Assembly (NCBI GenBank): GCA_027451105.1
Contig: DAIDKB010000038.1
Span: 1 to 64,000, forward strand
Origin: a bacterium
GTDB lineage: Bacteria > Patescibacteriota > Saccharimonadia > Saccharimonadales > Saccharimonadaceae
DNA length: 64,000 nt
Reading direction: 5' to 3'
A program made the position numbers and the translations under genes. Shown here one piece after another: positions 14,754 through 21,688 of this stretch (within the stretch, counting starts at the first letter, position 1; each line of letters begins with the position of its first letter). A model generated the notes under the pieces. It worked only from the letters and a program-made list of their open reading frames with translations, had not been told where the DNA came from and made no database searches.

Positions 14754-14790
14754 AAAGTAAAAGACCCGTCACTAACGGGTCTTTTACTTT
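14754..14790 (+). terminator. Strong terminator, abutting the attL repeat
   Basis: Perfect 16-bp inverted repeat (14754-14769 with 14775-14790; core AAGACCCGT/ACGGGTCTT) with A-rich left and T-rich right ends. Its last three T belong to the direct repeat that begins the integrated element. Confidence 0.9.
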
Positions 14791-14809
14791 GGTACGCGAG
14801 AAAGGACTT
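14788..14809 (+). repeat. Attachment site repeat, left copy (attL)
   Basis: 22 bases, starting TTTGGTACGCGAG, identical to 21602-21623. On the minus strand it reads as the T-arm 3' half, acceptor 3' strand and CCA of tRNA-Leu, but no tRNA body follows it. Confidence 0.85.
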
Positions 14810-15206
14810 AGTCACGTTCCGCTACCCCGAAAATTTACGGTTGGCAAACCAGTTGCCATCGGAAGGTTTCCTTGCGACCCGCAGACGTTGCGGGTCGCAC
14901 CTTCGCGCCCAAGGGGCTGCGGTTCAGTAATTTATATACCAAACAAAAAACCGACCAAAAGGTCGATTCTTTGTTTGGTACGCCAGAAGCCAAACAACTT
15001 GAACCGCTGGAAGCTATAAGTGACTGGCTGCTAAGTGACCTAGATATAACATGGCTTAGTCGTCAGTCTGATGTATTTGCGGTTCATCATGTAGCAGAGT
15101 ATAAACTCTAGTAAGCTGCCGTTTAATGAATAACCAGCGGACTATTGAACCTCTGTTAATGGTTATGCTTTAAAATATACTTTATGCGTGCTATTCTGGG
15201 CCTAAT
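14810..15206. other. Gene-poor left end of the element with dense hairpins
   Basis: No confident gene. It holds a perfect 10-bp hairpin, GCGACCCGCA (14874-14883) with TGCGGGTCGC (14889-14898), flanked by a second pairing GAAGGT (14862-14867) with ACCTTC (14899-14904). A further dyad spans 14938-14980: ACCAAACAA with TTGTTTGGT, inner CGACC/GGTCG. Its right arm leads into GTTTGGTACGC (14972-14982), a repeat of the att core. A frame open to 15111 encodes a plausible protein-like tail (...SLFGTPEAKQLEPLEAIS...) but lacks a credible start, so it may be the remnant of a gene or of an older integration. Confidence 0.5.
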
Positions 15207-15635
15207 ATGACATTTATTGATTGGTTTTCGATCGCATCCCTTGTTTTAAACGTGTTACTGATTGTTCTGAGCGTGGCGTTGGCTGTAAATAGTTGGAAAG
15301 CTGATAAACGAAGCAAAAGTCAGGTTAAAATTTGGATGGAGCAGGCGAACGGACTCAACCAGGCCCTGCTCAGGATTATACAGAATAAATGGGCAGGCCT
15401 GTACTCAACAGTAGCGGACGTGACTAATAGTGTACACATTGCTCAAGCAGCCTCCTTCTCGCTTTACCAGTCCCTATACGACGAGCGTGTTGTATCTGAA
15501 GAAAACTATAAAGCACGACAAGAAAAGCTATGGAAGAAGTTGGACAAAGACCTTCTCGATCAAGACGAACAGTTAGACGGCAGATCGAATGCCATGAAGC
15601 CTATAAAGAAGGCTGGAAAGACTGTTTCGAAATAG
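15207..15635 (+). CDS. Small single-pass membrane protein of unknown function
   Basis: 142 residues: one N-terminal transmembrane helix (about residues 8-28, LVLNVLLIVLSVALAV), then a charged, helical cytoplasmic-type domain rich in Lys, Gln and Asp with a very basic C terminus (KPIKKAGKTVSK). No known motif. An extended -10, TGCTATTCT (15189-15197), ends nine bases before the ATG, indicating a leaderless or near-leaderless mRNA. It ends 13 bases before the convergent ApeA-like gene. Its place beside two HEPN proteins suggests an accessory role such as membrane sensing, which is speculative. Confidence 0.6.
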   Translation: MTFIDWFSIASLVLNVLLIVLSVALAVNSWKADKRSKSQVKIWMEQANGLNQALLRIIQNKWAGLYSTVADVTNSVHIAQAASFSLYQSLYDERVVSEENYKARQEKLWKKLDKDLLDQDEQLDGRSNAMKPIKKAGKTVSK

Positions 15636-15647
15636 CTGGAAATATTC

Positions 15648-17006
15648 TTAGACGATAAATGTACGTCTAATCGATTGCTTTACTAATTCAGGCTCGACAC
15701 CTAGTTCGACGAGGATCAGCGCAAGGAGCATCTGTCCCACTTCTTGTGTGAGCTGTATAAGCTTCTCTGGGAGGCATATGTTTGTAATGTCCTTACTGTA
15801 GTGGCTATAGTAGTTTCTTGTGTTTGCTATAACATCGAAGTCGCATACGGTTATTGTCCAAATGCCTTTTTCTTTTAGTCCCTTATCTAGAGCACGAAGT
15901 CGTTGTTCAAGCGAAAAATCATTTCCTCGTTGGAGTACTTTTTTAAGTAATTTTTTGTCTGGACCCGTGAAACCACTTATTATACGATCTTTCTGTTTAT
16001 CATAATCATCCTGAGGAGCTAATATATCAGTACGAAAGCTCCTATTAAAAGCTTCAATAGCTTGAATACGGTTGAGGAATATATTTTCAAGTACCGTACT
16101 GGCACCCGAGGCACTACTCAGATATAGGTCCACGATTGGCAAGATTCGTTCCTCAAGTTCGGACCATTTATCTAGAAGTGTCTGAAAATCGGCAATTTGG
16201 TCATGAGTGAAACTGAGCTCGTACTGACGGCTCACATTAGGTGATGCTGTGCGTATATCAGACAAGGTTATGTCATATGTGGGGAATATACTAGGTTTAG
16301 CTTCACCATTTAGGGTCAATGTAAAATCTTGGGACGTAACATCTAGCTCATTGACTCGTATTTGCGACTTAAATGCCAAGCCCAAGATACGTTCTACAGA
16401 CTGCATCGCTTCGATCAACTCTAAATAAGGGACATTGTTTTGGCCTACTGTATCCAGCCCAATATGAGCAACTTGCTTAAGTTTAACTTCACGGGTTAAA
16501 CGCGAAAATCCCATTCCCGCAATGGATAGTATAAAACTTAGCTTAAGGCCTTTAAAGTCATACTCACCGATCTTCTTCTGTAAGGAGTAGTCAAGAGTAT
16601 CATTCATATGCATGGGATTATGAAACGAGAACAGAGATTGATTGAACCAAATATCTAGATTATCAACACTAGCGCTTAGCGACATAATATTGAGACTTAA
16701 CGGGTTAGTCGGGTCGTTTGTATGGAGTGTTTTTGTTGGAGAGAAGAATGTCGTATTCCCAACACTAATACGTCCCTCGTGTGATGATCTCCCAGCAAAG
16801 TAATTATCAAGAAATAGGTACTTATCATCTTCTTTCTTTGCATATGCTTCAATACGCTCAACGATCGACCAATCTTCTTCTGTAAGATCGTCAACACTCA
16901 ATTCAAAATTATTATCAGCAGTCCTTTTTACAGATCCATCATATTTTTTTCCGTCAGGAAAAGTAAAGGTAGCGAGCTGAGCTTCATTATTGGCATTTTG
17001 GTCCAT
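15648..17006 (-). CDS. ApeA-like protein: ApeA N-terminal-type domain plus C-terminal HEPN domain
   Basis: 452 residues. The first two thirds resemble the ApeA N-terminal domain class, with a beta-rich opening (GRSSHEGRISVGNTTF) and a helical stretch ending EAMQSVERILGLAFKSQI (about residues 200-220). The C-terminal part is HEPN-like and carries RNYYSHY (about residues 395-401), the R-N-x3-H active-site pattern of HEPN ribonucleases. Established: ApeA is a single-gene abortive anti-phage system whose HEPN nuclease is essential. The ATG at 17006 is chosen because a TATAAT (17014-17019, minus strand) ends seven bases upstream, implying a leaderless mRNA; the frame stays open to 17081. Gene content around it (recombinase, tRNA att) fits a defence island. 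Family call is from memory of motifs, not a search. Confidence 0.68.
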   Translation of the reverse strand: MDQNANNEAQLATFTFPDGKKYDGSVKRTADNNFELSVDDLTEEDWSIVERIEAYAKKEDDKYLFLDNYFAGRSSHEGRISVGNTTFFSPTKTLHTNDPTNPLSLNIMSLSASVDNLDIWFNQSLFSFHNPMHMNDTLDYSLQKKIGEYDFKGLKLSFILSIAGMGFSRLTREVKLKQVAHIGLDTVGQNNVPYLELIEAMQSVERILGLAFKSQIRVNELDVTSQDFTLTLNGEAKPSIFPTYDITLSDIRTASPNVSRQYELSFTHDQIADFQTLLDKWSELEERILPIVDLYLSSASGASTVLENIFLNRIQAIEAFNRSFRTDILAPQDDYDKQKDRIISGFTGPDKKLLKKVLQRGNDFSLEQRLRALDKGLKEKGIWTITVCDFDVIANTRNYYSHYSKDITNICLPEKLIQLTQEVGQMLLALILVELGVEPELVKQSIRRTFIV

Positions 17007-17013
17007 ACTTATC

Positions 17014-17055
17014 ATTATAGCGCCTCTATCTGTGAAGTGAGCCGCACTGTATAAT
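17014..17055. promoter_or_regulatory. Divergent promoters between the two HEPN-type genes
   Basis: Minus-strand TATAAT at 17014-17019 and plus-strand TATAAT at 17050-17055, the latter preceded by TG. Each ends seven bases from the ATG it serves (17006 and 17063), so both transcripts are predicted leaderless and the two promoters share about 30 bp that one regulator could cover. Confidence 0.65.
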
Positions 17056-17062
17056 AAGTGAT

Positions 17063-17866
17063 ATGTTTGAGCTATTTCCATTAACGCAAAAACAACTCTT
17101 CAAATTACCCGACTTAGCTGTGGATTCATCTACACATACTGATACATACAAGGGGCTGTTCATGAATGAACTTTTATCATTGGAATTAAGTGCAAAAAGG
17201 AGCCTTTCCCCTGCTACATATCGGCGCCACAAAGACGGTAGCGCAGACTTTTCTTTACAGGATACCGTATTGGATGTTTCAACGTTTTATTTATTTGCTC
17301 ATAAAACACTGGTTTCATCCATTTTTATCTTCGTCAAAACTCTTCCCCACGATAAGGCTCACGGCATCTCTTTTAAAAGCTACACGGGTTTTACCAAAAA
17401 TGTTTTGGCTAAAGAAAATGAAGTCTTAGAGCAAGTCTTTCGCGATTGCGGCAAGAAGTTATCGTGGGCACAAAGGGCAATTATTGATAAAAGAGACGAT
17501 CTCGTACAGCACTGGCAAGGTAATGCGTCGAATAAATTCTTCACTATGATATGCGCTTGGGATTTGCCCTATTTGGTTTATTACAACCCAAAAGGCCTAG
17601 ATAACATCGACAGTAAAAAAGTCGACTATGTGTATAGCCAAGTCAAAACAGCGGTAAAAACAAGCCTTGAGAATCAATCAGATACACTACAAAAAATCGT
17701 TTGGATGGAAGCTTGGCAGCCAACACTCAGTACGCAACTACAGGCCGAAATTGATAGCCTAGCAAATAACGATATTTTCATCGCCTTACCTGTTACTCCG
17801 CAACTCGTTCAAAAGCTAGATGAGATGATGGCTTGTCTGCTCGAAGAAGCACTCAAGCTCACATGA
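17063..17866 (+). CDS. Second HEPN-like protein, divergent from the ApeA-like gene
   Basis: 267 residues, no family recognised by name. The stretch SWAQRAIIDKRDDLVQHW (about residues 135-152) contains RDDLVQH, matching the HEPN R-x(4-6)-H consensus with an acidic residue after the Arg, placed in a predicted long helix as expected. The flanks are mostly alpha-helical. An N-terminal region rich in Leu/Phe precedes it. The promoter TATAAT (17050-17055) implies a leaderless mRNA starting at this ATG. Being head-to-head with another HEPN protein and sharing a promoter region, it may be a co-regulated partner (second nuclease, sensor or antitoxin-like modulator). The HEPN call rests on one motif. 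Confidence 0.5.
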   Translation: MFELFPLTQKQLFKLPDLAVDSSTHTDTYKGLFMNELLSLELSAKRSLSPATYRRHKDGSADFSLQDTVLDVSTFYLFAHKTLVSSIFIFVKTLPHDKAHGISFKSYTGFTKNVLAKENEVLEQVFRDCGKKLSWAQRAIIDKRDDLVQHWQGNASNKFFTMICAWDLPYLVYYNPKGLDNIDSKKVDYVYSQVKTAVKTSLENQSDTLQKIVWMEAWQPTLSTQLQAEIDSLANNDIFIALPVTPQLVQKLDEMMACLLEEALKLT

Positions 17867-17878
17867 TACACAATCTAC

Positions 17879-18187
17879 TTACTTAGGCTTGTCCCACGTG
17901 ATCAGAGAACCCAGATTGGCCTCTGTCGATAAGTCGATCTCAATAGGATTAACGTAGCACTCACAGCCATCATGTGCCGGTTCATGAAGTTGTCCTGATC
18001 GAAACTTATCCTTCACACCTATTGGTCCTTGGACGGCATTTGCTTTACAGGTATCACATGGGCTATTACCAGCCGTAATCCATTGCTTTTGTTTAACGCC
18101 ACTTTTAAGCATTGATGCTTGATTAGCAGCTCCATACTTGACTGCTTTCTGATCAACTGATAATTCCTTCTTTTTAAAGAATCCCAT
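17879..18187 (-). CDS. Small MuF/SPP1-gp7-like C-terminal domain protein
   Basis: 102 residues. The block QWITAGNSPCDTCKANAVQG, followed about 20 residues later by EPAHDGCECYVNP, matches the pattern W-x-T-x-D/N-x3-C-x2-C ... P-x-H-x2-C-x-C seen at the C terminus of Mu F / SPP1 gp7-type phage head proteins. Here it stands alone with a short Lys-rich N terminus, without the head-protein body. The four Cys and one His could bind a metal. The ATG at 18187 is one base after the stop of the upstream gene, whose last codons (GGA GGA AAC) supply the GGAGGA ribosome binding site, so the two are translationally coupled. Role unknown; a phage-derived domain reused beside a wall-facing protein is one possibility. 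Confidence 0.55.
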   Translation of the reverse strand: MGFFKKKELSVDQKAVKYGAANQASMLKSGVKQKQWITAGNSPCDTCKANAVQGPIGVKDKFRSGQLHEPAHDGCECYVNPIEIDLSTEANLGSLITWDKPK

Positions 18188-18188
18188 T

Positions 18189-19013
18189 TTAGTTTCCTCC
18201 AAAATATATGTAGGTTGAAAATAATGAGGCCGAGACAGTACTCACGGAATAGGTCGGACCTCCATAGTTATAAGCACTTATAGTGACCTGATCACCATTG
18301 ATCGCCTCAATCCAGGCAGAAAAACCTGCAGCGCTAGCACCATGTTGCCCTGCAGAGATGATCGCAACCGAATGTACCTTAGGTGTAGTTCCAGTCGGAA
18401 TACCAGCATTTTGGGCTTCAGTAGGCCAGTTAGTTGCATTCGCGCCGCCCCATGTGGTCGGCATATTACCAAAGGCTTCGTTAACCTTCCATGCTGTATA
18501 ACTTGTACTCTCTCGGTTAGACATGTTCCAGGTGTCAATAACTGTGTCGAGTGGAGCGCTTGACCATTTGCTAGGATAAGTGTCAGGGTATTGCTGCGTA
18601 GGGGTTTGTGGTGCCGTAGGGGCTGTCGGCTGAACACTTGGCGTAATTGTGGGTGTATTTGTAGTCGAGGTACTCGTACTCGTTACAGTGGTCTTAGGCG
18701 TTGTTTGTGGAGTTGTGCTTGGCTGGGTTGCCACGACTGAATCTTTAGTAACGTTCGGAGATGTTGTCGGCTGCGTTGTTAAAGTGGGTTTAGTGGATGT
18801 ATCCCTAGCCGTTAGCGGAGATGGCAGCGCATGAGCTAGCGATATAGCGCCTCCAGCGTAGACGACTAGTAGTGCAGCGATAATACTGACACGAAACACT
18901 TTGCTACGTTCTAGTTTGGTCCATACATACCAAAGTGCAAAGAGCGGCAACGTTATTATTGCTATAACGATGCCCCACCAGCGTTTGTACCATGCTTTGT
19001 GAATCTGTTTCAT
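18189..19013 (-). CDS. Membrane-anchored CHAP-fold protein lacking the catalytic residues
   Basis: 274 residues: two N-terminal hydrophobic segments (about residues 12-31 and 41-62), a Thr/Pro/Ser-rich linker (about 65-145), then a CHAP-like domain. The domain has the usual landmarks NRESTSYTAW, WGGANATNWP, TPKVHSVAIIS, FSAWIEAINGDQVTISAYNYG. In active CHAP amidases these carry RECTSY (catalytic Cys), GHVAWVE (catalytic His) and SEYN (Glu). Here Cys is Ser (AGT codon), the His position is Ser, and Glu is Ala, so the triad is missing while the fold signature stays. An inactive wall-binding or competitor protein is inferred. The gene has a roughly 210-nt structured leader and is coupled to the MuF-like gene. 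Confidence 0.72.
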   Translation of the reverse strand: MKQIHKAWYKRWWGIVIAIITLPLFALWYVWTKLERSKVFRVSIIAALLVVYAGGAISLAHALPSPLTARDTSTKPTLTTQPTTSPNVTKDSVVATQPSTTPQTTPKTTVTSTSTSTTNTPTITPSVQPTAPTAPQTPTQQYPDTYPSKWSSAPLDTVIDTWNMSNRESTSYTAWKVNEAFGNMPTTWGGANATNWPTEAQNAGIPTGTTPKVHSVAIISAGQHGASAAGFSAWIEAINGDQVTISAYNYGGPTYSVSTVSASLFSTYIYFGGN

Positions 19014-19242
19014 ACCTTGTTCCGCCTTTCATCAACGGTTAGTTGAACCTAGCGGAGACAACAAAAAGCCCGCCGCTAGGCGATATCCTTTCGGATACCT
19101 ACACACCTTTCGATGCGCAACCGGTAAAGATACCTGAACGACGAGCTCAGTATTCTTTACCGGAATTTACAACCATGCCTCGAAAGGTTTAGGTTATTGC
19201 CAAATTGTATAACGTCATAATGGCGTTGACTCGATTATAGCA
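19014..19242 (-). ncRNA. Structured 5' leader of the CHAP-like gene (candidate cis-regulatory RNA)
   Basis: An extended -10, TGCTATAAT (19234-19242, minus strand), starts a leader of about 210 nt. In RNA order: ACCTTTCGA pairs with TCGAAAGGT around an inner helix CCGGTAAAGA/TCTTTACCGG (19152-19161 region with 19121-19130), capped by CTGA/TCAG; then a GAAA-tetraloop hairpin GGTATCC/GGATATC; then CCTAGCGG/CCGCTAGG (8 bp); then TCAAC/GTTGA; then AAGGT before the ATG. CGCC/GGCG followed by GGGCTTTTTG lies inside the 8-bp stem, so a weak terminator hairpin and the longer stem exclude each other. I recognise no riboswitch class with confidence. The 3' part (CAACTAACC...GGCGGA) faintly recalls c-di-AMP leaders, which often precede wall hydrolases. 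Confidence 0.55.
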
Positions 19243-19360
19243 CTACAAGTGTTAAAGGAGCACAAAAGGGCACAAAGGGGGCACATATTAGGCATCGATT
19301 AAGCATCAGAAATAGGTAAAATGGGGGCAACGAAGAGGCAGTTATCCAGTAATGCTAGGG

Positions 19361-19393
19361 GCAGTAACCCAGCAGTAACCCAGCAGTAAAGCA
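19361..19393. repeat. Three 11-bp tandem repeats upstream of the XRE regulator gene's 3' end
   Basis: GCAGTAACCCA occurs twice in perfect tandem (19361-19371, 19372-19382), then as GCAGTAAAGCA (19383-19393), followed by a partial GCAGTGA. The interval 19243-19480 otherwise holds no gene, only G-rich direct repeats of GGGCAC type near 19268-19283. The phasing of 11 bp (one helical turn) fits protein binding sites on one DNA face. Confidence 0.7.
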
Positions 19394-19480
19394 GCAGTGA
19401 TTTGTGAACTATTTCACTTCATGGAGGGCGCTAAGTAAGCGCTAATGGAGCATACTTTCGGCACAAATTCGACCCCAAAA

Positions 19481-19726
19481 TTAGTCTTTTTTTACTGGGG
19501 GATCTTTAGTTAATAGGTTTGATACATGCCTTATGCCTAAAGCTCTAGTCAGCTTTAATAGAGTAACCATATAAAAGTTTACTTTGCCGTGTTCGATTCT
19601 AGACAAATGTGAACGAGGAATATCTGCTTCGGAGGCTAGGTCTAGTTGTGTCATATTTTTGTACTTCCTCCAGGCACGGATTCTTTTTCCAACGATTTCG
19701 AAAGTTTTACGGTCATTATCAGTCAT
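19481..19726 (-). CDS. XRE-family helix-turn-helix regulator
   Basis: 81 residues, an almost bare HTH_3 domain: KRIRAWRKYKNMTQLDLASEADIPRSHLSRIEHGKVNF (split here: recognition helix SHLSRIEHG, about residues 38-46). Such small phage-type repressors usually control excision or recombinase genes. It is divergent from the small acidic gene and the recombinase, and a 12-bp palindrome lies on its start codon. TATAGA (19732-19737, minus strand) ends five bases before the ATG, so its own mRNA is likely leaderless and autorepression through the palindrome is plausible. Confidence 0.85.
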   Translation of the reverse strand: MTDNDRKTFEIVGKRIRAWRKYKNMTQLDLASEADIPRSHLSRIEHGKVNFYMVTLLKLTRALGIRHVSNLLTKDPPVKKD

Positions 19727-19736
19727 AGAATTCTAT
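19725..19736. promoter_or_regulatory. Palindromic candidate operator with overlapping divergent -10 boxes
   Basis: ATAGAATTCTAT is a perfect 12-bp palindrome. It overlaps the regulator's start codon, its minus-strand -10 (19732-19737) and a plus-strand TATAAT (19734-19739). This is the natural place for the XRE protein to bind. Confidence 0.5.
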
Positions 19737-19839
19737 AATGTATGATTTAACGCACATTTTCAATATCTAACAGATTAAGCGCAAATTAGTCTGACTCGGC
19801 AGGTTATTGTTTACCCCGATACTCCACATAATTAATAGT

Positions 19840-20028
19840 ATGGGGATAAGAGTTAATCAGGATAATAATTCAGGAGGCGTTAATATTACACCTGCGGCCT
19901 CCGTTGCTACTGACGATAACCTTATCGATTTTATAGAAACTTTGGAGGAGATTGATATTACTGACCCAACATCGGCGATTAACGAGTACTCTATGCCAGG
20001 TAAAGACGGTGAACGTATCCTCTTCTGA
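19840..20028 (+). CDS. Small acidic protein of unknown function before the recombinase
   Basis: 62 residues, rich in Asp, Glu, Asn and Ile (NLIDFIETLEEIDITDP), no motif recognised. The frame is open from an ATG at 19807, but CATAAT (19827-19832) ends seven bases before the ATG at 19840, matching the leaderless pattern, so the shorter form is preferred. It ends 19 bases before the recombinase. Acidic proteins next to integrases can be directionality factors, although these are usually basic, or anti-repressor or antirestriction proteins. No function is assigned. Confidence 0.5.
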   Translation: MGIRVNQDNNSGGVNITPAASVATDDNLIDFIETLEEIDITDPTSAINEYSMPGKDGERILF

Positions 20029-20047
20029 TAGATGCTAAGATTAAGCT

Positions 20048-21625
20048 ATGGCTAAAGAAGAACAGATAGACTTAACAAAACTCCGTTATGTACTATACGC
20101 TCGTAAATCTACCGCGGACGAAGGTAGTCAGGTTAGATCACTCGGTGACCAGATTAAAGATTGCGAGAAGCTAGCCTCTAGCTCGGGCTTGAATATAGTC
20201 GCAACGTTTAAAGAATCAAAGTCGGCTAAAAAACCTAACCAACGACCCATCTTTACTAAAATACTTGAAGACATCGAAGCTAAAAAGTATGATGCCATCA
20301 TCTGCTGGCACCCAGATAGATTATGTAGGAATATGCTCGAAGGCGGACAGATTATCAATATGCTCGATGAGGGTGTTCTGAAAGATATTCGCTTCCATAG
20401 CCACCAATTTAGTAACGACGCCAACGGTAAGATGCTTCTTGGAATGCTGTTTGTGTTCTCGAAGCAATACTCTGACGATTTGTCAGCAAAAGTAAATCGG
20501 GGTGTCCAAGGCAACCTTGACGATGGCAAGTCAGCAGGTACTCCTAAGTGGGGCTACGACAGAAGTGACATAACTGGGCTATACGAACCAAATGAGCACT
20601 TTGATATGATGCAAGAAGCTTGGGATAGGCGAAGTCAAGGTGCAACAAATGCTGCCGTGGTCGAGTATCTCTTAGAAAGAGGCTATTATCGACTTACAAA
20701 GATAACCAAGAAGAATAAAATACAGAAGAAAATACTTCCTACCGAAAAGAGTTTGGGTGTTGCATTTCGTGACCCCTTTTACTATGGTATTCTTATCCAA
20801 TCTAACCAAATAACTGATCTGCGTGATATTGTCACCAACTTTCAGCCTATGATAAATCAGGACTTATTCAATAAAGTTCAGGCTTTAACTTATGAACGCA
20901 AGCGAGACATAAGCCCTGCCAAACAAACAGAGTTTAAACCTCTAATGCATATGGTATTTTGTGGTGTGTGTAATAGCTCAAGATGGATGGTAGCTGGTAA
21001 AAATAAACCAGGCGGTAGTAAACAACACGTCTTAAGCTACCGCTGCGACAACCTCAACTGCACGCGTTCAGTAAAGTCTATAAGGGCACGCTATGTCTTT
21101 GATGGCATATACTCGCTTTTAGATGGCCTCGAACTTACGGATGAGGCCTATGATCGTTACAGTAAGCGGATAGGTAGCCTAACAGATGCGAAGATAGTTA
21201 CTATACGCGAGACTATAGCTAGCAAACGTGGGGCTTTAGCACATAAGACAAAAGAGTTGAAAGAACTCTCACTAGGTCTTAGCACGATCAAAAAAAGTTC
21301 ACCAGCGTACTCTATAAACGAGAAGCGGATAGATGATCTATCTAGTGAAGTAACCGATATTGAGTCAGACGTAGAGAAGCTTAGGCAAAAAATCATAAAT
21401 CCCAATAGAATCAAGCTAACAAAAGAACAATTCTTGAACCTAGTGAAAACAGCACCGGATAAGATGAGACATGGTTCGGTCATTCAAAAAGACCGTGTTG
21501 CACGTGATTTGTTCTTGAACCTACACATTAATAACGAAAACGGCCTCTCCGTCATCTGGAGAGAGCCGTTTGCTAGCTTGGTTAAAGCCATTGAAATACC
21601 GTTTGGTACGCGAGAAAGGACTTGA
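20048..21625 (+). CDS. Large serine recombinase (integrase)
   Basis: 525 residues. The N-terminal resolvase domain starts YVLYARKSTADEGSQVRSL, with the nucleophile Ser in ARKS (about residue 20), and includes DAIICWHPDRLCRN. Next come the recombinase domain (about 165-260), a zinc ribbon with CGVCNSSRW and CDNLNC (about 311-337), a coiled coil (about 385-450) and a C-terminal tail. The last seven codons (FGTRERT-stop) are read from the tRNA-Leu 3' end on the opposite strand, that is, from the attachment repeat itself. This architecture is that of phage and SCCmec/Tn5397-type integrases, which need no long homology. A TAAGAT with upstream TGC (20033-20041) lies six bases before the ATG, so the mRNA is likely leaderless. 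Confidence 0.95.
   Translation: MAKEEQIDLTKLRYVLYARKSTADEGSQVRSLGDQIKDCEKLASSSGLNIVATFKESKSAKKPNQRPIFTKILEDIEAKKYDAIICWHPDRLCRNMLEGGQIINMLDEGVLKDIRFHSHQFSNDANGKMLLGMLFVFSKQYSDDLSAKVNRGVQGNLDDGKSAGTPKWGYDRSDITGLYEPNEHFDMMQEAWDRRSQGATNAAVVEYLLERGYYRLTKITKKNKIQKKILPTEKSLGVAFRDPFYYGILIQSNQITDLRDIVTNFQPMINQDLFNKVQALTYERKRDISPAKQTEFKPLMHMVFCGVCNSSRWMVAGKNKPGGSKQHVLSYRCDNLNCTRSVKSIRARYVFDGIYSLLDGLELTDEAYDRYSKRIGSLTDAKIVTIRETIASKRGALAHKTKELKELSLGLSTIKKSSPAYSINEKRIDDLSSEVTDIESDVEKLRQKIINPNRIKLTKEQFLNLVKTAPDKMRHGSVIQKDRVARDLFLNLHINNENGLSVIWREPFASLVKAIEIPFGTRERT
21602..21623. repeat. Attachment site repeat, right copy (attR), inside tRNA-Leu and the recombinase 3' end
   Basis: Identical to 14788-14809. 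The TGA stop of the recombinase begins at the last base of the repeat. The neighbouring bases diverge at once (A versus G after the repeat). Confidence 0.85.
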
Positions 21626-21688
21626 ACCTTCACGCCCGAAGGCACTAGCTCCTAAGGCTAGCGTGTCTACCAATTCCACCACTCGCGC
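21604..21688 (-). tRNA. tRNA-Leu (anticodon UAG)
   Basis: On the minus strand: acceptor GCGCGAG pairs with CTCGCGT (first pair G-U), discriminator A, encoded CCA. The anticodon stem CTAGC/GCTAG holds the loop CTTAGGA, giving anticodon TAG. The long variable arm GTGCCTTCGGGCGT (type II tRNA) and T-loop GTTCAAG are present. The 3' 20 bases overlap the recombinase gene antisense and form the attachment site, so integration leaves the tRNA intact. Confidence 0.96.

Follow-up and report, generated by a model that had tools for sequence, protein, structure and literature searches.

The divergent open reading frames 15648-17081 (minus strand) and 17063-17866 (plus strand) raise the question of whether an ApeA-like HEPN protein is encoded together with a second, coregulated HEPN protein, that is, whether the two constitute a new two-gene variant of ApeA. 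The frames were analyzed within a 64-kb stretch of DNA (64,000 nucleotides, referred to as the window), which lies on contig 37 of a 0.92-Mb genome in 46 contigs. Judging by its size, gene content and relatives, this genome probably belongs to Saccharibacteria (TM7). A first-pass annotation had proposed such a system. The reading frames, their divergent order, the motif RNYYSHY in the product of the minus-strand gene (the minus protein) and the motif RDDLVQH in the product of the plus-strand gene (the plus protein) were all recovered where it had placed them. The features of the locus are compiled in Table 1.

Table 1. Features of the locus, with positions in the window.
Feature	Position	Strand	Remarks
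attL, 22-bp direct repeat TTTGGTACGCGAGAAAGGACTT	14788..14809		Directly adjoins the remaining tRNA sequence in empty-site genomes
142-aa protein, cargo	15207..15635	+	One N-terminal hydrophobic stretch; weak 2TM-effector match (0.018)
ApeA-like HEPN protein	15648..17006	-	Pfam HEPN_Apea and PADLOC PDC-S58 matches
RNYYSHY, Rx4H motif of the HEPN domain	15798..15818	-	Intact; key residues invariant in 44 sequences
TATAAT, -10 box	17014..17019	-	7 nt before ATG 17006
TATAAT, -10 box	17050..17055	+	7 nt before ATG 17063
267-aa orphan protein	17063..17866	+	One relative, in G700 (59% identity)
RDDLVQH (R-x5-H)	17492..17512	+	At the middle of the 21-residue identical run shared with the G700 relative
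CHAP-domain protein	18189..19013	-	Pfam CHAP, 4.6e-6
Cro/C1-type HTH regulator of the island	19481..19726	-	Pfam HTH_3, 9e-10
Serine recombinase, island integrase	20048..21625	+	Pfam Resolvase, 1e-22; Recombinase, 0.0013, just below cut-off
attR, same perfect 22-bp repeat	21602..21623		3' end of tRNA-Leu(UAG)
tRNA-Leu(UAG), target gene, intact	21604..21688	-	ARAGORN, Rfam

The minus protein matched the Pfam family HEPN_Apea (PF18739) at 8e-19 (68.9 bits, cut-off 24.4) and ApeA_NTD1 (PF18862) at 3e-4 (20.7 bits, below the curated cut-off of 25.5). The closest PADLOC model was PDC-S58 (8e-40, 135 bits, residues 129-473), and the PADLOC Cas13-ApeA model matched the HEPN part only (5e-28). In an alignment of 44 sequences, which are 16-24% identical to the minus protein, residues W145, W306, E343, R394, I418, T421, R422, N423, Y424 and H427 were invariant, and the copy in the window looks intact. 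The AF2 model calculated with these 44 sequences reached a pLDDT of 77 and showed strands at residues 35-270 followed by helices, with low confidence at residues 1-31. This arrangement of a beta N-terminal half and a helical C-terminal half agrees with PMC3710099, which describes ApeA-NTD1 as a mostly beta domain fused to HEPN. A Foldseek search of the full model against the PDB returned no significant match. The HEPN_Apea and PDC-S58 matches, the invariant motif and the beta-then-helix model support the proposed identity of the minus protein as a real ApeA-like HEPN protein, and its gene is probably an antiviral RNA-cutting gene of a known kind. Relatives were found in many phyla (66 ApeA-like proteins from plasmids, Patescibacteria, viral contigs and GTDB contigs); they are similar in length (about 460 aa), and the minus protein is ~20% identical to any of them. 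A protein search of the other 294 sampled genomes of the class yielded no ApeA-like relative, and therefore no local phylogeny is available for the minus protein.

For the plus protein, no significant match to any family, HEPN families included, was obtained in Pfam, PADLOC, NCBIfam or PHROGs, and none was obtained among solved structures. A single-sequence AF2 model had a pLDDT of 33, and its fold was not usable. The sampled genomes (295 from the class, 380 from the phylum, 199 from the family and 204 from the order, the samples overlapping) contained one real relative, which belongs to another genus (G700) and is 59% identical over its length. No relatives were found in plasmids, phages, viral contigs and genome contigs, where the contig scans used patterns of 7-8 residues that would miss distant relatives. 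Weak matches in four further genomes (G325, G565, G505 and G683) were treated as chance because the E-values applied per genome and hundreds of genomes were searched. The match in G565 belonged to a kinase-like protein that ends in a rubredoxin-like tail, and the match in G683 ran antisense to a 977-aa ORF. G683 also contains a Cas9-like protein (L143 2019-3749), seen in the reading frame only, in which a RuvC-like motif begins (DIGTGSIGWAV).

The plus protein and its G700 relative share a longest identical run of 21 residues (WAQRAIIDKRDDLVQHWQGNA), centred on R-x5-H; by shuffling, a run of this length had p = 0.0009. Such conservation marks the block as important. It does not establish a HEPN fold: in the window's proteins, R-x4-6-H by itself turns up at a rate of about 0.9 per 267 residues, and a profile comparison (hhalign) of the plus-protein family with the ApeA family showed no similarity (0.1%). 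Of the proposed HEPN identity of the plus protein, the RDDLVQH motif stood and is kept in the relative, but a HEPN profile match was not obtained. A second HEPN is thus unproven, given that the protein matches no family and its single-sequence fold has a pLDDT of 33. The plus protein may be another toxin-like or RNA-binding module. It appears rather unlikely that it founds a new, rare family of HEPN-like RNases, a module shuffled near tRNA genes between partners such as the ApeA-like gene here and a three-gene run in another Saccharibacteria genus.

The two genes had also been assigned a shared promoter region of 56 bp with back-to-back -10 boxes and apparently leaderless starts. The boxes and their leaderless spacing were borne out: TATAAT-N7-ATG is perfect at both genes and occurs exactly twice in the 64-kb window, at 17019-17004 (minus) and 17050-17065 (plus), where 0.6 occurrences are expected. 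The 56-bp gap depends on a minus-gene start at 17006; it does not hold with the listed start at 17081, to which the frame is open (452 and 477 aa, respectively). The start at 17006 is favoured by the position of the -10 box, the low AF2 confidence of residues 1-31 and the alignment of homologs. A -10 box of 5/6 or better at leaderless spacing was present at 15 of 61 window genes compared with 1.3% of single internal start codons, an excess that is in part made by the number of tries, each gene having been given up to 8 candidate starts. The genome uses leaderless spacing habitually, and this spacing does not set the two genes apart. The two promoters would have interleaved, overlapping -35 regions, so that a shared promoter region alone would not mean co-expression. 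Because the spacing is common in the genome and the -35 regions would overlap, the promoter arrangement was rejected as a sign of a system.

The recurrence of the gene pair was examined from both sides. On the ApeA side, the fetched flanks were searched by phmmer without filters, and a relative of the plus protein stood beside the ApeA-like gene at none of the 66 loci. The upstream neighbour, taken by greedy ORF choice and not clustered by sequence, lay on the same strand in 40 cases and on the opposite strand in 23, and was absent at a contig end in 3. In gene context the neighbours vary in strand, distance and size, with no constant partner. On the other side, the plus-protein relative in G700 is encoded by the first of three same-strand genes and occurs without ApeA. 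Genes 1 and 2 of this run overlap (ATGA), and the end of gene 3 and the 3' end of a tRNA-Ala are about 240 bp apart. Within the 19.9 kb fetched in G700, the plus gene was the only one to match among the window genes tested, which included the ApeA-like gene. Genes 2 and 3 of the run gave no family match; matches of gene 2 to Rhizobium plasmids led to transposase-like genes and were not used. An empty site for the run was sought in genus-mates, whose loci did not extend beyond the tRNA. Beside the run, a fragment of the 5' part of tRNA-Ala is repeated just before the tRNA (L142 8543-8563 and 8631-8651).

The claim of a conserved, coregulated two-gene ApeA variant did not survive this comparison, as no co-occurrence was found as far as the genomes were searchable. 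A conserved pair was rejected on the basis of 66 ApeA-side neighbourhoods and one other plus-protein context, that of the G700 relative without ApeA. All relatives on the ApeA side are distant, and a young pair may be confined to close, unsampled relatives. Nothing found elsewhere marks the two genes as a lasting pair, and the sequences at hand lend no support to a new two-gene ApeA system.

The two genes lie as cargo within an island of 6.8 kb (14788-21623) that is bounded by a 22-bp direct repeat. In nine stretches from genus-mates around the site, RecG, RsmD, tRNA-Leu(UAG) and FAD oxidase followed in order in six, and a match to an island gene was seen in none of the nine. An empty site was found in genus-mates, at L106 and L108, where the sequences flanking the repeat are contiguous. 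The G+C content is 42% for the island, 40% for its two genes under study and 46% for the surroundings. The stop codon of the serine recombinase falls inside the tRNA-Leu(UAG) gene. The 525-residue length of the integrase is the same in the integrated and the predicted circular island, since its last codons come from the att site and are followed by TGA or TAG; the island may be mobile to this day. Among the island genes scanned with Pfam, no tyrosine integrase was found, the serine recombinase being the only candidate. The island also encodes a 107-aa protein weakly similar to phage minor head proteins (17879-18202, minus strand; PHROG 115, 4e-4), and a LOOT RNA (Rfam RF03000, 73 bits) lies between the HTH and CHAP genes at 19082-19195 (minus strand). 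A degenerate second copy of the att site and tRNA 3' end is present at 14937-15005, with GTTTGGTACGCCAGAA at 14973-14988 after a hairpin. This copy lies 186 bp inside attL and is possibly the trace of an earlier insertion.

Relatives of the recombinase were read in their genomic context at 25 loci, the window's own and 24 others at 34-64% identity (L115-L139). In all 25, the recombinase gene was followed at its 3' end by a tRNA gene in the opposite direction, and in 22 of these it ran into the tRNA 3' end with an overlap of 13 to 85 nt. At the three other loci, all at tRNA-Lys (L135, L136 and L139), the recombinase gene stopped 56, 26 and 354 nt short of the tRNA, respectively. The recombinase matches contain internal stops in L139 and one in L135, which may explain the gaps at these two loci. 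Seven tRNA species were represented in the clade (Leu, Met, Ile, Gln, Pro, Ser and Lys). Two sister loci carried known defence genes near the recombinase: Gabija GajA/GajB together with a CBASS cyclase and a 2TM effector in one (L148 2159-6554), and a type II methyltransferase with a restriction enzyme in another (L145 5600-7511). Border repeats were sought in six sister loci, of which L149 gave a good candidate (15 bp exact), L147 a weaker one (17 of 22) and the remaining four none. According to a statement from 2014, only tyrosine recombinases, and not serine integrases, were known to target tRNA genes (PMC4383910). If the clade truly targets tRNA genes, this statement would be contradicted, and the clade would offer a way into the question of how minimal episymbionts acquire defence genes. 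Later literature was covered in part, and novelty is not claimed for the targeting of tRNA genes by serine recombinases.

The best explanation of the locus, to which we assign a probability of about 0.72, is that the minus protein acts in defence as a stand-alone ApeA-like protein, that the plus gene is separate cargo not required for it, and that both are carried by a serine-recombinase island at the 3' end of tRNA-Leu(UAG). A two-component defence, with the plus protein acting as second HEPN RNase or as regulator alongside the ApeA-like protein and the divergent promoters keeping both together, would suit the head-to-head genes with their matching perfect leaderless promoters, their transport on one island and the position of R-x5-H within the best conserved block of the plus protein. 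It is improbable in view of the 66 ApeA-like genes, none of which adjoins a plus-protein relative, the only such relative living without ApeA, and the lack of profile similarity between the two families. The plus protein might instead neutralize the ApeA-like HEPN protein and be needed for the cell to tolerate it, as in a toxin-antitoxin pair. Many toxin-antitoxin systems contain HEPN domains (PMC3710099), and the divergent neighbours again have matching promoters, but neither a nucleotidyltransferase nor another known antitoxin family was found with Pfam, PADLOC and NCBIfam, and the relatives of each protein persist without the other, which leaves neutralization very improbable.

A further explanation can be put forward tentatively, namely that the plus gene is a stand-alone remnant of another multi-gene system, represented by the run of G700, and landed by the ApeA-like gene on the island. 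The three same-strand genes near the 3' end of tRNA-Ala, the first two overlapping, speak for it, as does the search of that region with window genes, in which the plus gene alone gave a match. The gene in the window does not, however, look like a decaying remnant, being of full length with its own intact promoter and a fully conserved R-x5-H block.

If the minus protein is the stand-alone defence protein of the preferred explanation, comparison with ApeA and with other HEPN proteins in defence suggests that it would be silent until infection. Its beta-rich N-terminal half would act as a sensor, most likely of a signal made by the phage. By its title, a 2026 preprint in the references of PMC13405049 reports that deoxydinucleotides activate ApeA. 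The HEPN dimer would be switched on through R422/H427, and the activated RNase would cut host RNA, for instance tRNA, with phage growth stopping together with the cell. The divergent plus gene would be separate cargo under its own promoter, whatever activity its product may have. Both genes probably arrived on the 6.8-kb integrative island, which the serine recombinase would have inserted at the 3' end of tRNA-Leu(UAG). An ApeA-like gene is thereby recorded from a Saccharibacteria-type genome, a setting that yielded almost no relatives, with a small island at a tRNA 3' end as its vehicle. The gene is of a known kind and its vehicle is interesting; the plus gene is a rare orphan.

Among known systems, the HEPN superfamily shares with the plus protein the R-x5-H motif with an Asp following the Arg (PMC3710099), but the plus protein has no profile match to any HEPN family. 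The locus differs from HEPN-MNT toxin-antitoxin systems in that a Pfam scan of the neighbours detected no minimal nucleotidyltransferase domain. The PADLOC candidate class PDC-S58 is matched over residues 129-473, and the minus protein has the length of its relatives; it differs in being about 20% identical to any of them. With ApeA, a single-gene anti-phage HEPN system, the minus protein has in common the C-terminal Apea-like HEPN domain with RNxxxH, an N-terminal part that is beta-rich in the AF2 model, and relatives without a constant neighbour. In contrast to ApeA, its N-terminal domain is weakly like NTD1, its full length is closer to PDC-S58 than to the Cas13-ApeA models of PADLOC, and its gene travels on a Saccharibacteria-type island. 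This island resembles the Islander-type tDNA genomic islands in its intact tRNA, displaced 3' fragment, integrase at the tRNA end and empty site, and differs from them in that its integrase is a serine recombinase.
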